This document shows positions 1-33,308 of a DNA stretch of 35,280 nt, piece by piece (position 1 is the stretch's first letter; every line of letters starts with the position of its first letter). The DNA comes from Brachyspira sp. G79 (lineage in GTDB: Bacteria; Spirochaetota; Brachyspiria; Brachyspirales; Brachyspiraceae), in contig NZ_JQIU01000007.1 in the NCBI RefSeq assembly GCF_002379365.1, forward strand, positions 99,364 through 134,643, written 5' to 3'. A program made the position numbers and the translations under genes. The notes beneath the pieces were generated by a model. It had not been told where the DNA came from, did not search any database, and saw only the letters and a list, made by a program, of their open reading frames with translations.

Positions 1-410
1 TAAAAATAGTACTAATAAAGTTAAAAAGAAAAAATTATTAATAAAGTAATAGAAATTAACAAGAAATATAAATTTTATAAAAAGAGTTTATAGTCCAGCT
101 ACGAAGAGACATATTGGTAGATAGTAATTGCTACAGTGCTGTAGTTGAAATACACATAACTATAACCAAAAAATAATTTTATGTATTTTGTCATTAAGAA
201 TTAACTTTAGAAAAAGCTAATTAAAAATTAAGAAAATATAATAATTTCTTGGAACTATAAACTCATACACTCTGCTTTAAATTATAGCACTCCTGTGTCA
301 TTATTCAAGAAATTAAGTAATACTTAAATATAATATCTCTGACTCCTATGCAAAATAAAAAATCAAAATGTCTTGATAAAAAACTAAAAATACTATATCA
401 TTTTTAGTAT
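1..410. other. Gene-free region with candidate structured RNA (84-315)
   Basis: I see no supported coding sequence here. Two long complementary pairs are visible. Bases 84-96 (GAGTTTATAGTCC) pair with 251-264 with a one-base bulge. Bases 242-251 (TAATTTCTTG) are perfectly complementary to 306-315. The two helices share base 251 and cross each other, so they are either a pseudoknot or alternative folds. Smaller hairpins include CTACAG/CTGTAG near 132-145 and nested ACAC/GTGT and TGCT/AGCA pairs inside 267-298. A possible -10 TATAAT lies at 329-334 and an 8-bp inverted repeat (CTAAAAAT/ATTTTTAG) at about 384-407, just before the riboswitch. I found no match to tmRNA, RNase P or SRP RNA hallmarks. 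An unknown small RNA or a longer leader is possible. Confidence 0.3.
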
Positions 411-515
411 AAAACTGGGGAGCTTGAAAAGGCTGAGAGGAAGTTTATTTTATTATAAAAAATAAAATATCTTCGACCCTTATAACCTGTTTGGGTAATG
501 CCAGCGTAGGGAATT
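411..515 (+). promoter_or_regulatory. TPP (thiamin pyrophosphate) riboswitch aptamer
   Basis: The conserved THI-box blocks are present in order: CTGGGGAGC at about 415-423, GGCTGAGAGG at 431-440, GACCC at 475-479, ATAACCTG at 482-489 and TGGGTAATGCCAGCGTAGGGA ending near 512 (read here in two parts, TGGGTAATG and CCAGCGTAGGGA). An AT-rich hairpin (ATTTTATT/AATAAAAT) extends the P3 arm between 447 and 468, closed by GAAG/CTTC. The element lies about 170 nt upstream of an OppA-family lipoprotein gene and tenA, so both are predicted to be repressed when TPP is plentiful. Confidence 0.94.
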
Positions 516-550
516 ATCTCTTTTATTACTTTTCAAATATTATAAATATA

Positions 551-588
551 ATAAAATGAGACCTTTTCTAAAGTTGGTCTTGTTTTAT
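551..588 (+). terminator. Putative expression-platform terminator of the TPP riboswitch
   Basis: Bases 551-563 (ATAAAATGAGACC) pair with 576-588 (GGTCTTGTTTTAT), including two G-U wobbles, around a 12-nt loop. The 3' arm is U-rich, but the run after it is short, so termination strength is uncertain. Its place between the aptamer and the first gene suits transcription attenuation. A second 8-bp hairpin (642-649/654-661) lies just before the ribosome site at about 672. Confidence 0.5.
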
Positions 589-683
589 TAAAAAATATCA
601 AGCAAGACTAAAAATTTCAATAAAACAAAACAAACGGCGTTATAAAAATCTCTATTTTTATTTATAATCTAAAGGAGCTTTTT

Positions 684-2291
684 ATGACTTCAAAACAAAG
701 ATTTATCGTTATATTATTTTTATTTATATCGTTCATATCTTGTAAAAAACAAACAAAAAATATCAAAGATGAAATCACTGTAAATTTGGGCTATGAACTC
801 AATACTATAGACCCAGCCTTAAATGATGAAACTTACGGATATATTTATATTAATCATGCCTTTGAGGGACTTCTTAATAAAGATATAAACGGCAATATTG
901 TAGGAGGTGTTGCTGAAAGTTTCGATATAAGCGATGATAAACTAATATACACATTCCATTTAAGAGATAATGCTAAATGGAGCGATGGTAAAAAAGTTAA
1001 AGCTGATGATTTTGTATATTCTTATAGAAGAGCAGCAGACCCAAAAACAGCTTCCCCGTTAAGTTATTTAATGGAATATATAAAAAATGCCAAAGACATA
1101 ATAAGAGGCAAACAAAGTGTAGAAAACCTAGGAGTTAAAGCAATAGATGAAAATATATTAGTGATAGAACTTGAAGAGCCTACGATATATTTTACGGATT
1201 TACTTGCATCAGGAGGCGTATATATGCCTGTAAGAAAAGATATAATAGAAAAATACGGAGATGATTGGACTTGGAATCCTAATACCTATATAGGAAATGG
1301 TGCTTATAAAATGACAGAAAGAAAACCAGATGAGATTCTAGTTTTTGAAATTAATACTAATTATTGGAATTATACAAATCAAATTGCTAAAAAAATAAAT
1401 TTTGTTTTGATAGCCGATGAATATATTTCACTTAATGCTGTAAGAACAGGTGATATCGATTTTTCTATAAATGCTCCGCCTATTGGAGAGATAGAAAATC
1501 TTATAAAAGAAAATATAATGGCAGTAAGTGATATTATAGGAACTTATTATATAGACTTAAATACTAGAGATAAAACACTATCTGATAAAAGAGTAAGAAA
1601 AGCATTATCATTAGCAATAGACAGAAACTATATAGTATCAAATATAGGATACGGAAAATTAATTGCAGCAGAGGCTTTCGTACCTCCTGCAGTAAAAGGA
1701 CTTGAAAAATCATTCAGAGAAGAAAGCAGTAATTATATAATAGCAAATAATTATAATAAAAATGTTGAAGAGGCAAGAAAATTATTAGCTGAGGCAGGAT
1801 ACCCAAACGGAGAAAATTTTCCTATTTTAGAGTTAAAAGTATCATCAGGTTTTTATACTACAGTTATGGAAGCAGTTCAGCAAATGTGGAAAGAAGCACT
1901 TAATATAGAGGTAGCTGTAAGAACAGAAGAATCAAAAATAACTTTGCCTTTTAGAGAATCTGGAAATTATCAAATGGCAAGAACAAGCTGGACAGGAGAT
2001 TATAATGATCCTCTTACTATGCTTCAGATTATGACAAGCGATAGCGATATAAATTACGGAGGCTTTTCTAATGAAAGATACGATTCTTTAATAGATTTTG
2101 CTATTACTGCCACAAATGCTAAAGAGAGAATGGATACATTAAAAGAAGCAGAATCTATACTTTTTGAAGAAGTCCCTATTATACCTTTTATATATAGAAC
2201 TGACTTTTTGGTAGTTAACCCAAAATTAAAAAATTATATTGATGAGCCTTTGGGCAGATATAAGTTTAACTATGCATATATAGAAGAATAG
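684..2291 (+). CDS. OppA-family ABC transporter substrate-binding lipoprotein under TPP control
   Basis: This 535-aa protein is an extracytoplasmic solute-binding protein of family 5 (the peptide/nickel OppA type). The N-terminus is a lipoprotein signal: a short basic start, a hydrophobic core and a lipobox FISC with Cys20 as the lipidation site. The family signature AKWSDGKKVKADDFVYSYRR sits near residues 98-117, and the C-terminal part carries the paralogue-shared blocks KALSLAIDRNYIV and AFVPPAVKG. AAGGAG precedes the start by 7 nt. Two paralogues of nearly equal length lie at 31698-33308 and 33422-35017, but only this copy has a TPP riboswitch upstream and tenA 83 nt downstream. That context suggests a thiamin-related ligand rather than peptides; this is inference. 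No permease or ATPase gene is present, so it must borrow a transporter encoded elsewhere. Confidence 0.9.
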   Translation: MTSKQRFIVILFLFISFISCKKQTKNIKDEITVNLGYELNTIDPALNDETYGYIYINHAFEGLLNKDINGNIVGGVAESFDISDDKLIYTFHLRDNAKWSDGKKVKADDFVYSYRRAADPKTASPLSYLMEYIKNAKDIIRGKQSVENLGVKAIDENILVIELEEPTIYFTDLLASGGVYMPVRKDIIEKYGDDWTWNPNTYIGNGAYKMTERKPDEILVFEINTNYWNYTNQIAKKINFVLIADEYISLNAVRTGDIDFSINAPPIGEIENLIKENIMAVSDIIGTYYIDLNTRDKTLSDKRVRKALSLAIDRNYIVSNIGYGKLIAAEAFVPPAVKGLEKSFREESSNYIIANNYNKNVEEARKLLAEAGYPNGENFPILELKVSSGFYTTVMEAVQQMWKEALNIEVAVRTEESKITLPFRESGNYQMARTSWTGDYNDPLTMLQIMTSDSDINYGGFSNERYDSLIDFAITATNAKERMDTLKEAESILFEEVPIIPFIYRTDFLVVNPKLKNYIDEPLGRYKFNYAYIEE

Positions 2292-2374
2292 CATAATAAG
2301 AAAATAATACTTAATAAAATAAAAACATAAAAATCTAATAATTAATAGTCAAATAAAATAAAAAGGAGAATAAA

Positions 2375-3037
2375 ATGAAATTTTCAGAAATGGTATGGAA
2401 AAAAAATGAGGAGCTATATAAAAAAATAATTGATATGCCATTTAACAAAGAGCTTATGGAAGGCACTTTAAATAAAGAAAAATTTGCCTATTATATAGAA
2501 CAAGACAGCCTGTATTTAAAATACTATTCTAAAGTATTGGCAACAATATCTTCAAAAATAAATAATAATGCAGATTATGCTTTTTTCTTTTTAAAATCAT
2601 CTATGAATGCCTATATAGTAGAAGAAGAAATCGTACATAAATATTTTAGAGATACTTTTCAATTAAAAAATACAAATAAAATTACAACTGCCAATTTAGG
2701 TTATACAAGTTTTTTAATTAATACAGCTCATACTGAGGCTTTTGAGGCTTCTGCTGCTTCTATACTTCCATGCTTTTGGATATATAATGAAATAGGAAAA
2801 TATATAAAAGAAAATGCAAAAATTGAAAATAATCCATACAAAAACTGGATTGATGCTTATGCTGATGAAGAGTTTTCAAAATCAACAGAAAATATGATTA
2901 AAATTATTGATGATTTATATAATAATGCTTCTGATTATGTTAAAGAAAAAATGATAATTGCTTTTGATATAGCCTTTGTTTGGGAGTATAGATTTTGGAA
3001 TGACGCTTATAATTTAGATGATTTTTATAATGTGTGA
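2375..3037 (+). CDS. tenA: TenA-family aminopyrimidine aminohydrolase (thiaminase II)
   Basis: This 220-aa protein has the normal TenA length. TenA enzymes hydrolyse aminopyrimidine breakdown products of thiamin to HMP, feeding salvage. The residues known from Bacillus subtilis TenA are all in place with the same spacing: Asp44 (EQDSLY), Tyr110, nucleophile Cys133 (ILPCFWIY), Tyr137, Tyr162 and Glu204 (FVWEYRFW). The protein should be cytoplasmic and has no signal peptide. AAGGAG precedes the ATG by 6 nt. It follows the OppA-like lipoprotein gene in the same direction and very probably shares its TPP-riboswitch transcript. It ends in TGA, which matters here because it shows that TGA is an ordinary stop in this organism. 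Confidence 0.93.
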   Translation: MKFSEMVWKKNEELYKKIIDMPFNKELMEGTLNKEKFAYYIEQDSLYLKYYSKVLATISSKINNNADYAFFFLKSSMNAYIVEEEIVHKYFRDTFQLKNTNKITTANLGYTSFLINTAHTEAFEASAASILPCFWIYNEIGKYIKENAKIENNPYKNWIDAYADEEFSKSTENMIKIIDDLYNNASDYVKEKMIIAFDIAFVWEYRFWNDAYNLDDFYNV

Positions 3038-3066: not shown

Positions 3067-3113
3067 TTGAAATTTACTTCCCTGTATGATATAATTAACT
3101 TATACATACAGGG
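3067..3113 (+). promoter_or_regulatory. Sigma-70 promoter with operator-like dyad
   Basis: TTGAAA (3067-3072), a 17-bp spacer and TATAAT (3090-3095) form a near-consensus promoter. A perfect 9-bp inverted repeat brackets the -10: CCCTGTATG (3080-3088) and CATACAGGG (3105-3113). The left arm lies upstream of the expected start site near 3102, so the dyad is better read as a DNA operator than as an RNA hairpin. The right arm runs directly into the GGGGG ribosome site of the rhodanese gene. Confidence 0.7.
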
Positions 3114-3669: not shown

Positions 3670-5199
3670 TTAATGTTTAAAATGTCTTATTCCAGTAAAT
3701 ACCATAGCAATACCATGTTCATTGCATGCTTCTATTGATTCTTTATCTCTAATAGATCCGCCCGGCTGAATTATAGCCTTAATATTGTATTTAGCACAAG
3801 CATCAATAACGTCTCTGAATGGGAAAAATGCATCAGATGCCATTACAACTCCATCTCCTGCACGTTCTAAAGCATCTTCGCAAGCCCATATTCTGTTAGT
3901 CTGTCCGCTTCCTATACCTTTAGCCATGAAGTCTTTTATTACCACTATAGCATTTGATTTAGCATATTTTACAACCTTCATTCCGAATATTAAATTTTTC
4001 ATCTCTTCTTCAGTAGGTTTTTTCTCAGTTACAACTTTATAATCTTCTACTAAAACACTATCCTCATCTTGAATAAGTAGTCCTCCGTCCACTTTTACAA
4101 GATTAATTTTATCGCTTGTATTAGTTTTATATTTTATAACTCTCAAATTATTTTTTGTTTTTAATACTTCCAAAGCCTCTTTAGTAAAGTCTTTAGCAAT
4201 AACAATTTCTAAAAATATTTTAACAAGCTCTTTCGCTGTTTCCTCATCTACTGTACTATTAAAGGCAACTATTCCTCCGAATATAGAAGTAGGATCGCAA
4301 TTATAAGTTCTAGTATAAGCCTCAAGTACATTACTACCCAAAGCAGCACCGCAAGGCGTAGAGTGTTTTATTGCAGAACAAGCATATTCATTTTTAGCCT
4401 CATCAAATTCAAGAACTATTTTTAAAGCTATATCCATATCTCTAATATTATTAAATGAAAGCTCTTTTCCGTTTAACTGTTCAAAATCTTTCATAGAGCC
4501 ATTATCTGTAGTAGATACATAATAGCTTGCCCCCTGATGAGGATTTTCTCCGTATCTTAATTTCTCCTTTAAGGCATAAGACATATTTAGATAATTAAGT
4601 TTTTTATCTTCCTTATTTTCCAATGAATTAAACATAAACTCAGACACTGCAGCATCATAAGCAGAAGTTAAATTAAATACTTTAGAAGCTAAATATTTTT
4701 TTGTTTCAAAACTAACTTCCCCTTTTTCCATCTCATTTTTAACTAAATCATAATCTTTAACATCGCTTATAACAACAACATCTTTAAAAGATTTAGCAGC
4801 AGAACGAAGCATTGTAGGTCCGCCTATATCTATAAACTCTATTTTTTCCTCAAACTTCAAACTGTCATCTTGTACCTTTTCAAAGAAAGGATAAAGATTA
4901 ACTATCACCATATCAATAGGAGTTATTCCTCTCTCTTTAATAGTTTGCATATGAGTAGGATTATCTCTTATAGCGAGTATTGCCCCATGTATTTTAGGGT
5001 CTAAAGTTTTTACTCTTCCGTCAAGCATTTCTTTAGCACCAGTAACTTCAGCAACCTCTATAACATTTATACCATTCTCTTTTAAATATTTATAAGTTCC
5101 CCCTGTGGAAACTATTTCCACATTTTTTGAAGCTAAAAACTTAGCGAACTCTAATATTCCGTCTTTATAAAATACGGATATCAATGCTCTTTTAATCAT
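3670..5199 (-). CDS. purH: Bifunctional AICAR formyltransferase / IMP cyclohydrolase
   Basis: This 509-aa cytoplasmic enzyme catalyses the last two steps of IMP synthesis. Residues 1 to about 145 form the MGS-like cyclohydrolase domain (STGGTYKYL at 31-39, [13 protein letters not shown] at 60-72). The rest is the AICAR transformylase domain, with RYGENPHQG and the catalytic Lys278-His279 in [11 protein letters not shown], plus GSGQTNRI near the C-terminus. The open frame extends upstream to 5277, but I start at 5199: that ATG begins [14 protein letters not shown] as in the family and has AGGAG 8 nt before it, while the extension is low-complexity. No other pur genes are adjacent. It has its own promoter at 5266-5293. 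Confidence 0.96.
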
Positions 5200-31697: not shown

Positions 31698-33308
31698 ATG
31701 AAAAATATTTTTTTATATTTAATAATCATTATTGTAACCGTTTCCTGCAATAATCAAAATCAAAAAATTGATCCAACCAGAGATATAATAATTAATATGG
31801 GAAGTAATCCTGCTACAATAGATCCTACACTAAACTCTATAGGTGTAGTCAGTACATACATATTGCATGCATTTGAAGGTTTAACAAAAACAGACCTTAA
31901 TAATAATATAAAAGCTGGAATGGCAGAAAGCTGGGATATATCAAAAGATGGTTTAACATATATATTTCATCTAAGAACAAATGCAAAATGGTCTGACGGA
32001 AAACCAGTAACAGCTTATGATTTTCAATACAGTTGGAGAAGAGCTGTAGACCCTAATATTAATGCCTCATACTCATACATGATGGAAATTATAAAAAATG
32101 CAAAAGATATAAGAATGGGACTTATGAGTGTAACAAATTTAGCCGCTGAAGCTGTAGATGATTATACATTAAAAGTAGTACTTGAAACTCCATCTATGTA
32201 CTTCATAGACTTTTTGGCTTCTACTGGAATATTTGTGCCTTTGAGAGAGGATATTATAGAAAAATACGGGGATGAATGGACGCTAAAACCTGAGACATAT
32301 ATCTGTAATGGACAATATAAATTAAGAGAAATAATTGAAAATGAGAAAATAGTATTTGAAGAAAATCCATACTACTATGATAAAAATGAAATAATAGCTA
32401 AAAGAATAACTTTTGTATCAAATTCTGATGTAATAAATATTATTGAACAAATTACTAATGGACAAATACATTTTTCAGCATTAGAAGCCCCTGCTTATGA
32501 GCTAGAATATCTTAAAAATGAAGGATATATTGTTCCAAATAATGCAATAGGAACTATATATCTTGAATTAAATATAACAAATGAAGCATTAACAAATAAA
32601 CTAGTAAGACAGGCATTATCACTTGCTATAGATAGAAAATATATAGTTAATAACATAATAAAAGGATCTCAAACTCCTGCAGGAGCTTTTGTACCGCCTG
32701 CTGTAAAAGGTATTAGATATTCTTTTAGAGATGAGTCATCTAATTACATAGATACAGACAGCTACGAAAAAAATATTATGAAAGCCAAAGAATTAATGGC
32801 TCAGGCTGGATATCCTAATGGAGAAAATTATCCTGTTTTGCAGGTAAAAGTATCTCCTGGAATGTTTTATGAAGTTGGAGAGGCTATTAAAAAAATGTGG
32901 AAAGACAATTTAAATATAAATACTGATTTACAGGAGGAAGAGTTCCCAGCTACATTATTGGCACTCACAAAGAAAAAATATCAAATCGCAAGAATGGGCT
33001 GGACTGGTGATTATTATGACCCTATGACTATGCTTGATGTTATGATAAGCTATGGAGGAGTTAATCATTCTGGTTTTTCAAATGCTAAATATGACAGTTT
33101 AATATCTGAGGCTAAATTATCATATGATAATAATCTAAGAATGAAAAATATGAGAGAGGCTGAAGCTATACTTTTAGATGAAATGCCTATTATACCTTTA
33201 TATTATAGATCAGATTCTTTTATAGTATATCCATATTTGAGAGATTTGGTATTAAATCCTTTAGGAAGACATAGATTTAATTATTGCTATTTGGAGCAGA
33301 CTAATTAA
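31698..33308 (+). CDS. OppA-family ABC transporter substrate-binding lipoprotein
   Basis: The 536-aa protein has a lipoprotein signal ending in TVSC (Cys17) and a family-5 solute-binding domain. The signature NAKWSDGKPVTAYDFQYSWRR lies near residues 97-117 (conserved core KWSDGKPVTA). It shares long blocks with its neighbours, including QALSLAIDRKYIV, GAFVPPAVKG and GYPNGENYPVLQVKV. CGGAG precedes the ATG by about 13 nt. Oligopeptides are the family's usual ligand. It is followed by another paralogue after 113 nt, and neither has a permease or ATPase gene beside it. A 62-codon frame overlapping its start in another phase is an artefact of AT-rich sequence. Confidence 0.92.
   Translation: MKNIFLYLIIIIVTVSCNNQNQKIDPTRDIIINMGSNPATIDPTLNSIGVVSTYILHAFEGLTKTDLNNNIKAGMAESWDISKDGLTYIFHLRTNAKWSDGKPVTAYDFQYSWRRAVDPNINASYSYMMEIIKNAKDIRMGLMSVTNLAAEAVDDYTLKVVLETPSMYFIDFLASTGIFVPLREDIIEKYGDEWTLKPETYICNGQYKLREIIENEKIVFEENPYYYDKNEIIAKRITFVSNSDVINIIEQITNGQIHFSALEAPAYELEYLKNEGYIVPNNAIGTIYLELNITNEALTNKLVRQALSLAIDRKYIVNNIIKGSQTPAGAFVPPAVKGIRYSFRDESSNYIDTDSYEKNIMKAKELMAQAGYPNGENYPVLQVKVSPGMFYEVGEAIKKMWKDNLNINTDLQEEEFPATLLALTKKKYQIARMGWTGDYYDPMTMLDVMISYGGVNHSGFSNAKYDSLISEAKLSYDNNLRMKNMREAEAILLDEMPIIPLYYRSDSFIVYPYLRDLVLNPLGRHRFNYCYLEQTN

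Follow-up and report, generated by a model that had tools for sequence, protein, structure and literature searches.

A gene for a family-5 (OppA-type) substrate-binding lipoprotein belongs to the TPP regulon in Brachyspira, where it stands directly behind a TPP riboswitch aptamer in all 25 genomes in which the locus could be read. Because this link comes together with a conserved off-switch in the leader, the receptor is best read as binding a thiamin-related compound, and we consider it very probable that the protein takes some ligand of this kind. The ligand that we favour, with moderate confidence, is thiamin itself, in which case the locus would be a TPP-repressed thiamin uptake gene. The earlier note on this DNA had proposed that a peptide-type binding protein was recruited for thiamin, HMP or thiamin degradation products, which TenA then processes. 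That interpretation is partly supported: its outline, a receptor of the peptide type within the thiamin regulon, is right and is reinforced by the data from the whole genus, which move our best guess to thiamin, with TenA as an optional downstream step. The aptamer, the promoter, the terminator, the competing pairing, the genus-wide link and the gene sets described below were established by computation.

The window, which is the whole stretch of 35,280 nucleotides analysed, contains a single RNA according to an Rfam search. This TPP aptamer (RF00059) aligns to the complete model (1-105 of 105) with a score of 56.4 bits (gathering score 54.3; E 1.2e-8), which bears out the complete aptamer noted before, apart from a start at 411 that was five bases late. 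The two genes previously recognised behind the aptamer were also confirmed. The receptor (535 aa) scores 288 bits against the SBP_bac_5 profile (cut-off 32.4), spanning positions 2-366 of 368, and this is its sole Pfam match; the TenA protein (220 aa) scores 101.8 bits against TENA_THI-4 (cut-off 22). As read from the sequence, the start of the receptor (...SFISCKK) is a lipobox. At 3067-3095, a promoter-like site (11 of 12 positions matching) separates tenA from the next gene (rhodanese), and the transcription unit is therefore probably receptor-tenA. The G79 genome as a whole contains 18 family-5 matches and two TPP aptamers, the second of which precedes thiM.

Table 1. Coordinates of the features of the receptor-tenA locus and of two paralogues in the window.
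Feature	Position	Strand	Remarks
Sigma-70-type promoter, TTGATA-17-TATCAT	373..401	+	10/12 consensus matches; ends shortly ahead of aptamer
TPP riboswitch aptamer (RF00059)	406..529	+	Above gathering score; core invariant in 25 leaders
Antiterminator strand, adjoining the P1 3' strand	517..528	+	Complementary to 549-561
Intrinsic terminator hairpin, U-rich 3' side	549..590	+	Pairs kept in 24/25 leaders
Conserved leader element ACGGCGTTATAAAAAT	634..649	+	Among 188 loci, only in those with the receptor leader
Family-5 (OppA-type) substrate-binding lipoprotein, proposed thiamin receptor	684..2291	+	PF00496, 288 bits
tenA, thiaminase II / aminopyrimidine hydrolase	2375..3037	+	PF03070, 101.8 bits
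Family-5 paralogue without riboswitch (for comparison only)	31698..33308	+	Profile matches, identity to receptor
Family-5 paralogue without riboswitch (for comparison only)	33422..35017	+	Profile matches, identity to receptor

The natural reading of the leader is that it is a switch that would turn transcription off with TPP, both the sensing of TPP and the direction of the response being deduced from the sequence. By eye, all 25 leaders have a promoter of this type at the corresponding position; it is the best-scoring site of a promoter scan in 23 of them, the best score falling on a different site in G011 and G014. In these 23 leaders the -10 element ends 11-15 bases before the GGGG of the aptamer, so the message should begin at the aptamer. 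The terminator hairpin keeps 13-15 of its 15 pairs in 24 leaders, the exception being G019, which keeps six and has another hairpin, and its predicted stability is -14 to -18 kcal/mol in most leaders. A simple consensus terminator scan detected none in the window; it missed this hairpin because its loop limit is 8. The strand at 517-528 can form 12 of 12 pairs with the 5' arm of the terminator in 17 leaders, 10-11 in four, eight in three and four in G019. Single-leader folds gave a shifted but similar antiterminator pairing for G001, G003 and G017, and in G002 both sides of one antiterminator pair are changed. Since most leader pairs are invariant, their support consists of sequence conservation, with little covariation.

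There was no sign of a transcription start between the riboswitch and position 684 that bypasses the switch, which would have spoken against the interpretation in the earlier note. The conserved promoter lies at the aptamer, though there is also the conserved element at 634-649. This element, situated between the terminator and the start codon, may be a second promoter, an RNA structure or a protein site. GTTATAAAAAT is kept in nearly all of the 25 leaders. The 12-base loop of the terminator (564-575, TTTTCTAAAGTT) is almost invariant across the leaders, which is beyond the needs of a terminator. In many leaders the 3' arm (576-590) shows complementarity as well to a AATAAAACAAGAC-like stretch further downstream, at about 619-631, a possible third pairing.

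The link between aptamer and receptor was analysed in 26 Brachyspira species genomes, in which the DNA around all 47 aptamer matches was read. Every genome contains TPP aptamers, and 45 of the 47 matches exceed the cut-off. An aptamer lies directly before an orthologue of the receptor in 25 genomes, the orthologues (excluding that of the window itself) being 72-96% identical, and an arrangement recurring in 25 of 26 genomes is not due to chance. Named matches to the receptor in a contig database came from Brachyspira in 13 of 14 loci, the other, from an Opitutae genome, being partial and at 31%. The gene tenA directly follows the receptor in only 15 of the 25 loci; the contig ends first in G023, and in the remaining nine tenA is elsewhere, broken or not found. 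It is therefore the receptor, and not tenA, that is the constant target of TPP control. The tie between receptor and TenA is thus looser than originally suggested, G001 and G003 keeping the receptor with tenA broken or not found. No second-aptamer locus was seen at the unlinked tenA genes, which, on these data, are therefore not under TPP control.

In the assembly of the 26th genome, G013, the receptor is absent, and the flanks of the locus reach two contig ends (C42 ends at 4276, C345 at 3320), which points to an assembly gap and not to loss of the receptor. For this reason, a joint loss of receptor and tenA in G013, which had seemed to be strong support, was rejected as evidence. The stretches L078:793-1098 and L078:6260-6630, which match the G013 contigs, contain repeats of about 30-270 bases that occur in dozens of places in G013; the same short repeats flank the locus in G011 and are probably small mobile or intergenic repeats.

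The remaining 22 aptamers precede a 450-aa membrane protein (16), thiM itself (five) or a contig end (one). The 450-aa protein is the first gene after the second aptamer in 16 genomes (e.g., L039:4644-5993, minus strand), often together with a PhzF-like gene and thiM. Its assignment to the Gate family, which we take to be a family of nucleoside recognition (YjiH-like) proteins, was checked for one protein and extended to the others by length and place, with thiM next except on the short G020 contig. The protein is a candidate transporter of thiamin or a precursor.

By its sequence, the receptor resembles peptide receptors. A sequence search against OppA structures gave E 8e-87 (2z23), and its best structural relatives are peptide receptors. 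It falls far below the cut-off of the NCBIfam OppA equivalog NF011684 (348.4 versus 947 bits), which says little about its ligand since both paralogues of the window also miss this cut-off. The receptor likewise gave no sign of being a ThiB-type protein: no ThiB model was matched in NCBIfam, and in Pfam only SBP_bac_5 was. The two paralogues at 31698 and 33422 do exist without a riboswitch, both TPP aptamers of G79 being located far away, but they are not the close paralogues that had been claimed, sharing 50% and 48% identity with the receptor; among the other family-5 proteins of the G79 genome, the nearest (C8:1923223) is 55% identical. Opp permease genes were not recognised near the G79 family-5 genes by a heuristic based on length, hydrophobicity and motif rather than on a profile search.

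Phylogenetically, the TPP-linked receptors form a single clade of 24 rows with a support of 100/100 and a stem of 0.65 changes per site. The alignment and the tree were built without the duplicates L089, L100, L103 and L107-L110, the 790-aa L104, the 327-aa L123 and the G011 receptor, whose start was mis-set by the ORF rule; G013 has no row. We then compared the positions Asp419, Arg413, Tyr109, Lys307, Trp397 and Gly415 of OppA, which we take to be peptide contacts. The peptide anchors Asp419 and Arg413 are kept in all 24 rows of the clade. The position of Tyr109 is occupied by Leu, Ile, Met or Asn in 24/24 rows and by Tyr or Phe in 38 of 40 paralogues, and Lys307, Trp397 and Gly415 are replaced by Gly, Ser and Ser, respectively, throughout the clade. 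A role of Asp419 in OppA is described in PMC9967938 and PMC5736914. As it is kept, an amine may still be anchored there, and a peptide ligand is possible.

The comparison of pocket residues with the paralogues, which the earlier note had advised, did yield private changes, but not an unusual number of them. Private fixation was found at five of 18 contact positions in the receptor clade versus 35 of 469 elsewhere (p 0.011), and four other receptor groups of the genus have four, four, three and one of the 18 contacts privately fixed. The control on the pocket change used only the contact positions named in PMC9967938; with the shorter contact list of 13, two positions are privately fixed, which is not significant (p 0.29). 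Pocket divergence had been considered as proof of a new ligand and was rejected, because other groups nearly match it (4/18 in two of them); such changes are no mark of a changed ligand class. Judged by its residues, the pocket indicates that the receptor has a specificity of its own, as its paralogues do, and is silent on which ligand is bound. An AlphaFold2 model of the receptor (23 rows) was poor, with a mean pLDDT of 64.5.

Next, we determined which genes for handling thiamin are present in the 26 genomes. ThiL exceeds its cut-off in 24, and thiamin pyrophosphokinase was found solely in the other two, G001 and G003, so that the two enzymes are mutually exclusive across the sample (24 versus 2). 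TenA was found in 24 genomes, intact in 23 of the 24 with ThiL (not in the fragmentary G013) and as a remnant in G001. This remnant (L034:3298-3480, minus strand) contains one TAG and one TAA and ends a thiM-thiE-HAD-thiD operon. ThiE and a strong ThiD are each present in 24 genomes and are missing from G003 (88% complete) and G023 (85% complete). In G003, which has the receptor and the kinase, TenA, ThiL, ThiE and a strong ThiD were not found. Its assembly consists of 990 contigs, and its missing genes form one operon, thiM-thiE-thiD, in the sister G001, so a single assembly gap could explain their absence. The receptor tree places G001 and G003 as sisters, and the exchange between kinase and ThiL may therefore be a single event. 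ThiT was found in none of the 26 genomes, and ThiB exceeded its cut-off in none, with weak matches in 18.

The TenA of the window scores below the cut-off of the NCBIfam salvage_TenA equivalog (120.7 versus 130 bits). In an alignment with B. subtilis TenA, the Cys (LPC.W), Asp (EQD) and Glu (WEY.FW) motifs are present in all 15 receptor-linked TenA proteins, the LPC motif having also served as a filter for picking these 15. The three residues are presumably those of the TenA active site. S. aureus TenA takes thiamin, not TMP or TPP (PMC2766623).

These data can be joined in the following mechanism. When TPP is ample, the aptamer would close and the hairpin at 549-590 would form, stopping transcription ahead of 684. 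When TPP is scarce, 517-528 would pair instead with the 5' arm of the hairpin, and the message would continue into the receptor gene and, in G79, into tenA. An OppA-type lipoprotein would thus have switched its ligand to thiamin. Since no permease gene adjoins the receptor, it would probably deliver thiamin to an Opp-type permease that is shared. In the 24 species that lack the kinase, G79 among them, TenA would split imported thiamin into HMP and thiazole, from which ThiD, ThiM, ThiE and ThiL would rebuild TPP. The two species that have the kinase would pyrophosphorylate thiamin directly, and TenA would be dispensable there. Thiamin is favoured as the ligand because it alone suits both direct pyrophosphorylation and the route of TenA cleavage and rebuilding. 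The full scheme, in which the family-5 receptor is the thiamin receptor of the whole genus, works through a shared Opp permease and feeds a cleave-and-rebuild route of TenA, ThiD, ThiM, ThiE and ThiL in the species without the kinase, is tentative, and we would put it at somewhat below even chances.

Weighing against thiamin is the invariance of the putative peptide anchors Asp419 and Arg413 in 24/24 rows of the clade, which would fit an ordinary oligopeptide receptor that came under the TPP riboswitch accidentally or through some indirect cause. Peptide receptors being its best structural relatives, and a pocket change that is not unusual among paralogues, agree with such a protein. However, the aptamer is linked to the receptor in every readable genome (25/25), terminator and promoter are conserved, and the Tyr109 position, aromatic in 38/40 paralogues, is so in 0/24 rows of the receptor clade; we therefore regard a plain peptide receptor as improbable. 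Of the recruitment proposed earlier, then, the place in the regulon (25/25) and the conserved off-switch stood up, whereas thiamin is no more than the favoured candidate for the ligand, since the anchors of the peptide N-terminus are kept.

Among thiamin-related ligands, a precursor or breakdown product (HMP, an aminomethyl- or formylamino-pyrimidine, or thiazole), processed by TenA together with ThiD or ThiM, would be the counterpart of what ThiXYZ imports in Bacilli. The adjacency of tenA and receptor in 15/25 loci would agree with this, as would the 24 genomes without a kinase for intact thiamin and the presence of ThiE, ThiD and ThiL, each in 24/26. Yet G003 keeps the receptor and the kinase with ThiE, ThiD and TenA undetected (in an 88% complete genome), G001 keeps the receptor with merely a broken tenA, and the second TPP-controlled membrane protein, of the Gate family in 16 genomes, could import a precursor instead. 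We consider a precursor unlikely. TMP or TPP, as for ThiB and mycoplasma p37, would be the ligand in another reading, TMP feeding ThiL directly; ThiL in 24 genomes and several arginines that are invariant in the receptor clade point that way. This reading would leave TenA without a role, although 23 of the 24 genomes with ThiL retain TenA and the S. aureus enzyme refuses TMP and TPP (PMC2766623), and a phosphorylated ligand seems to us quite improbable. Thiamin itself remains the ligand that we prefer.

The receptor shares with OppA and other SBP_bac_5 proteins the fold family (by sequence), export as a lipoprotein and the Asp419 and Arg413 positions, and differs from them in its TPP riboswitch, the loss of the aromatic residue at Tyr109 (24/24) and an operon without permease genes. 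In another spirochaete, Treponema denticola, Bian in 2011 reportedly described a TPP-regulated ABC transporter for TPP, and the two systems are alike in the TPP riboswitch and the ABC-type uptake of a vitamin. The T. denticola receptor is, we assume, a ThiB/TbpA-type protein that has a permease of its own; in contrast, that of Brachyspira belongs to family 5 and stands alone, in a genus with ThiB above cut-off in 0/26 genomes. The p37/Cypl lipoprotein of mycoplasmas presumably belongs to another protein family than the receptor of the window, which matches SBP_bac_5 alone in Pfam. It too is a lipoprotein binding a vitamin, thiamin or TPP, beside a TPP riboswitch (PMC4498124). In Bacillota, ThiXYZ-type HMP transporters and TenA similarly combine a receptor and TenA in one TPP-regulated unit, but there the receptor is of the SsuA family and has permease and ATPase genes (PMC12452182), whereas the family-5 receptor is alone. 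The tenA-thiM-thiD-thiE genes of S. aureus, under a THI box (PMC2766623), resemble the Brachyspira set in a thiamin-splitting TenA, salvage enzymes and TPP control; S. aureus also has a thiamin pyrophosphokinase, which 24/26 Brachyspira genomes are without.

TPP regulons otherwise consist of genes for thiamin synthesis and for the transport of thiamin or its precursors, as stated in PMC3766115. The main text of this survey, which spans 24 bacterial groups and treats TPP among other regulons, mentions neither spirochaetes or Brachyspira nor oligopeptide or OppA. The texts available to our literature search described neither a thiamin receptor of family 5 nor this TPP switch of Brachyspira.

If thiamin is indeed the ligand, a vitamin would be added to the ligands of a large family of peptide receptors, a job not known for it, and the thiamin uptake gene would be named for a genus of gut spirochaetes without ThiT and without ThiB above cut-off. 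In species that lack the pyrophosphokinase, TenA would then be the first enzyme to act on intact thiamin and would take on a central role in their physiology. The case also warns that, in spirochaetes with many such genes, like the 18 matches in G79, automatic OppA annotations can mask other ligands, and that riboswitches can reveal ligands hidden behind them. A further family-5 gene (L145:8247-9860) is located about 1.3 kb from the G79 thiE gene (G000:C7:331202-331756); it has no aptamer, and its position there is probably due to chance.
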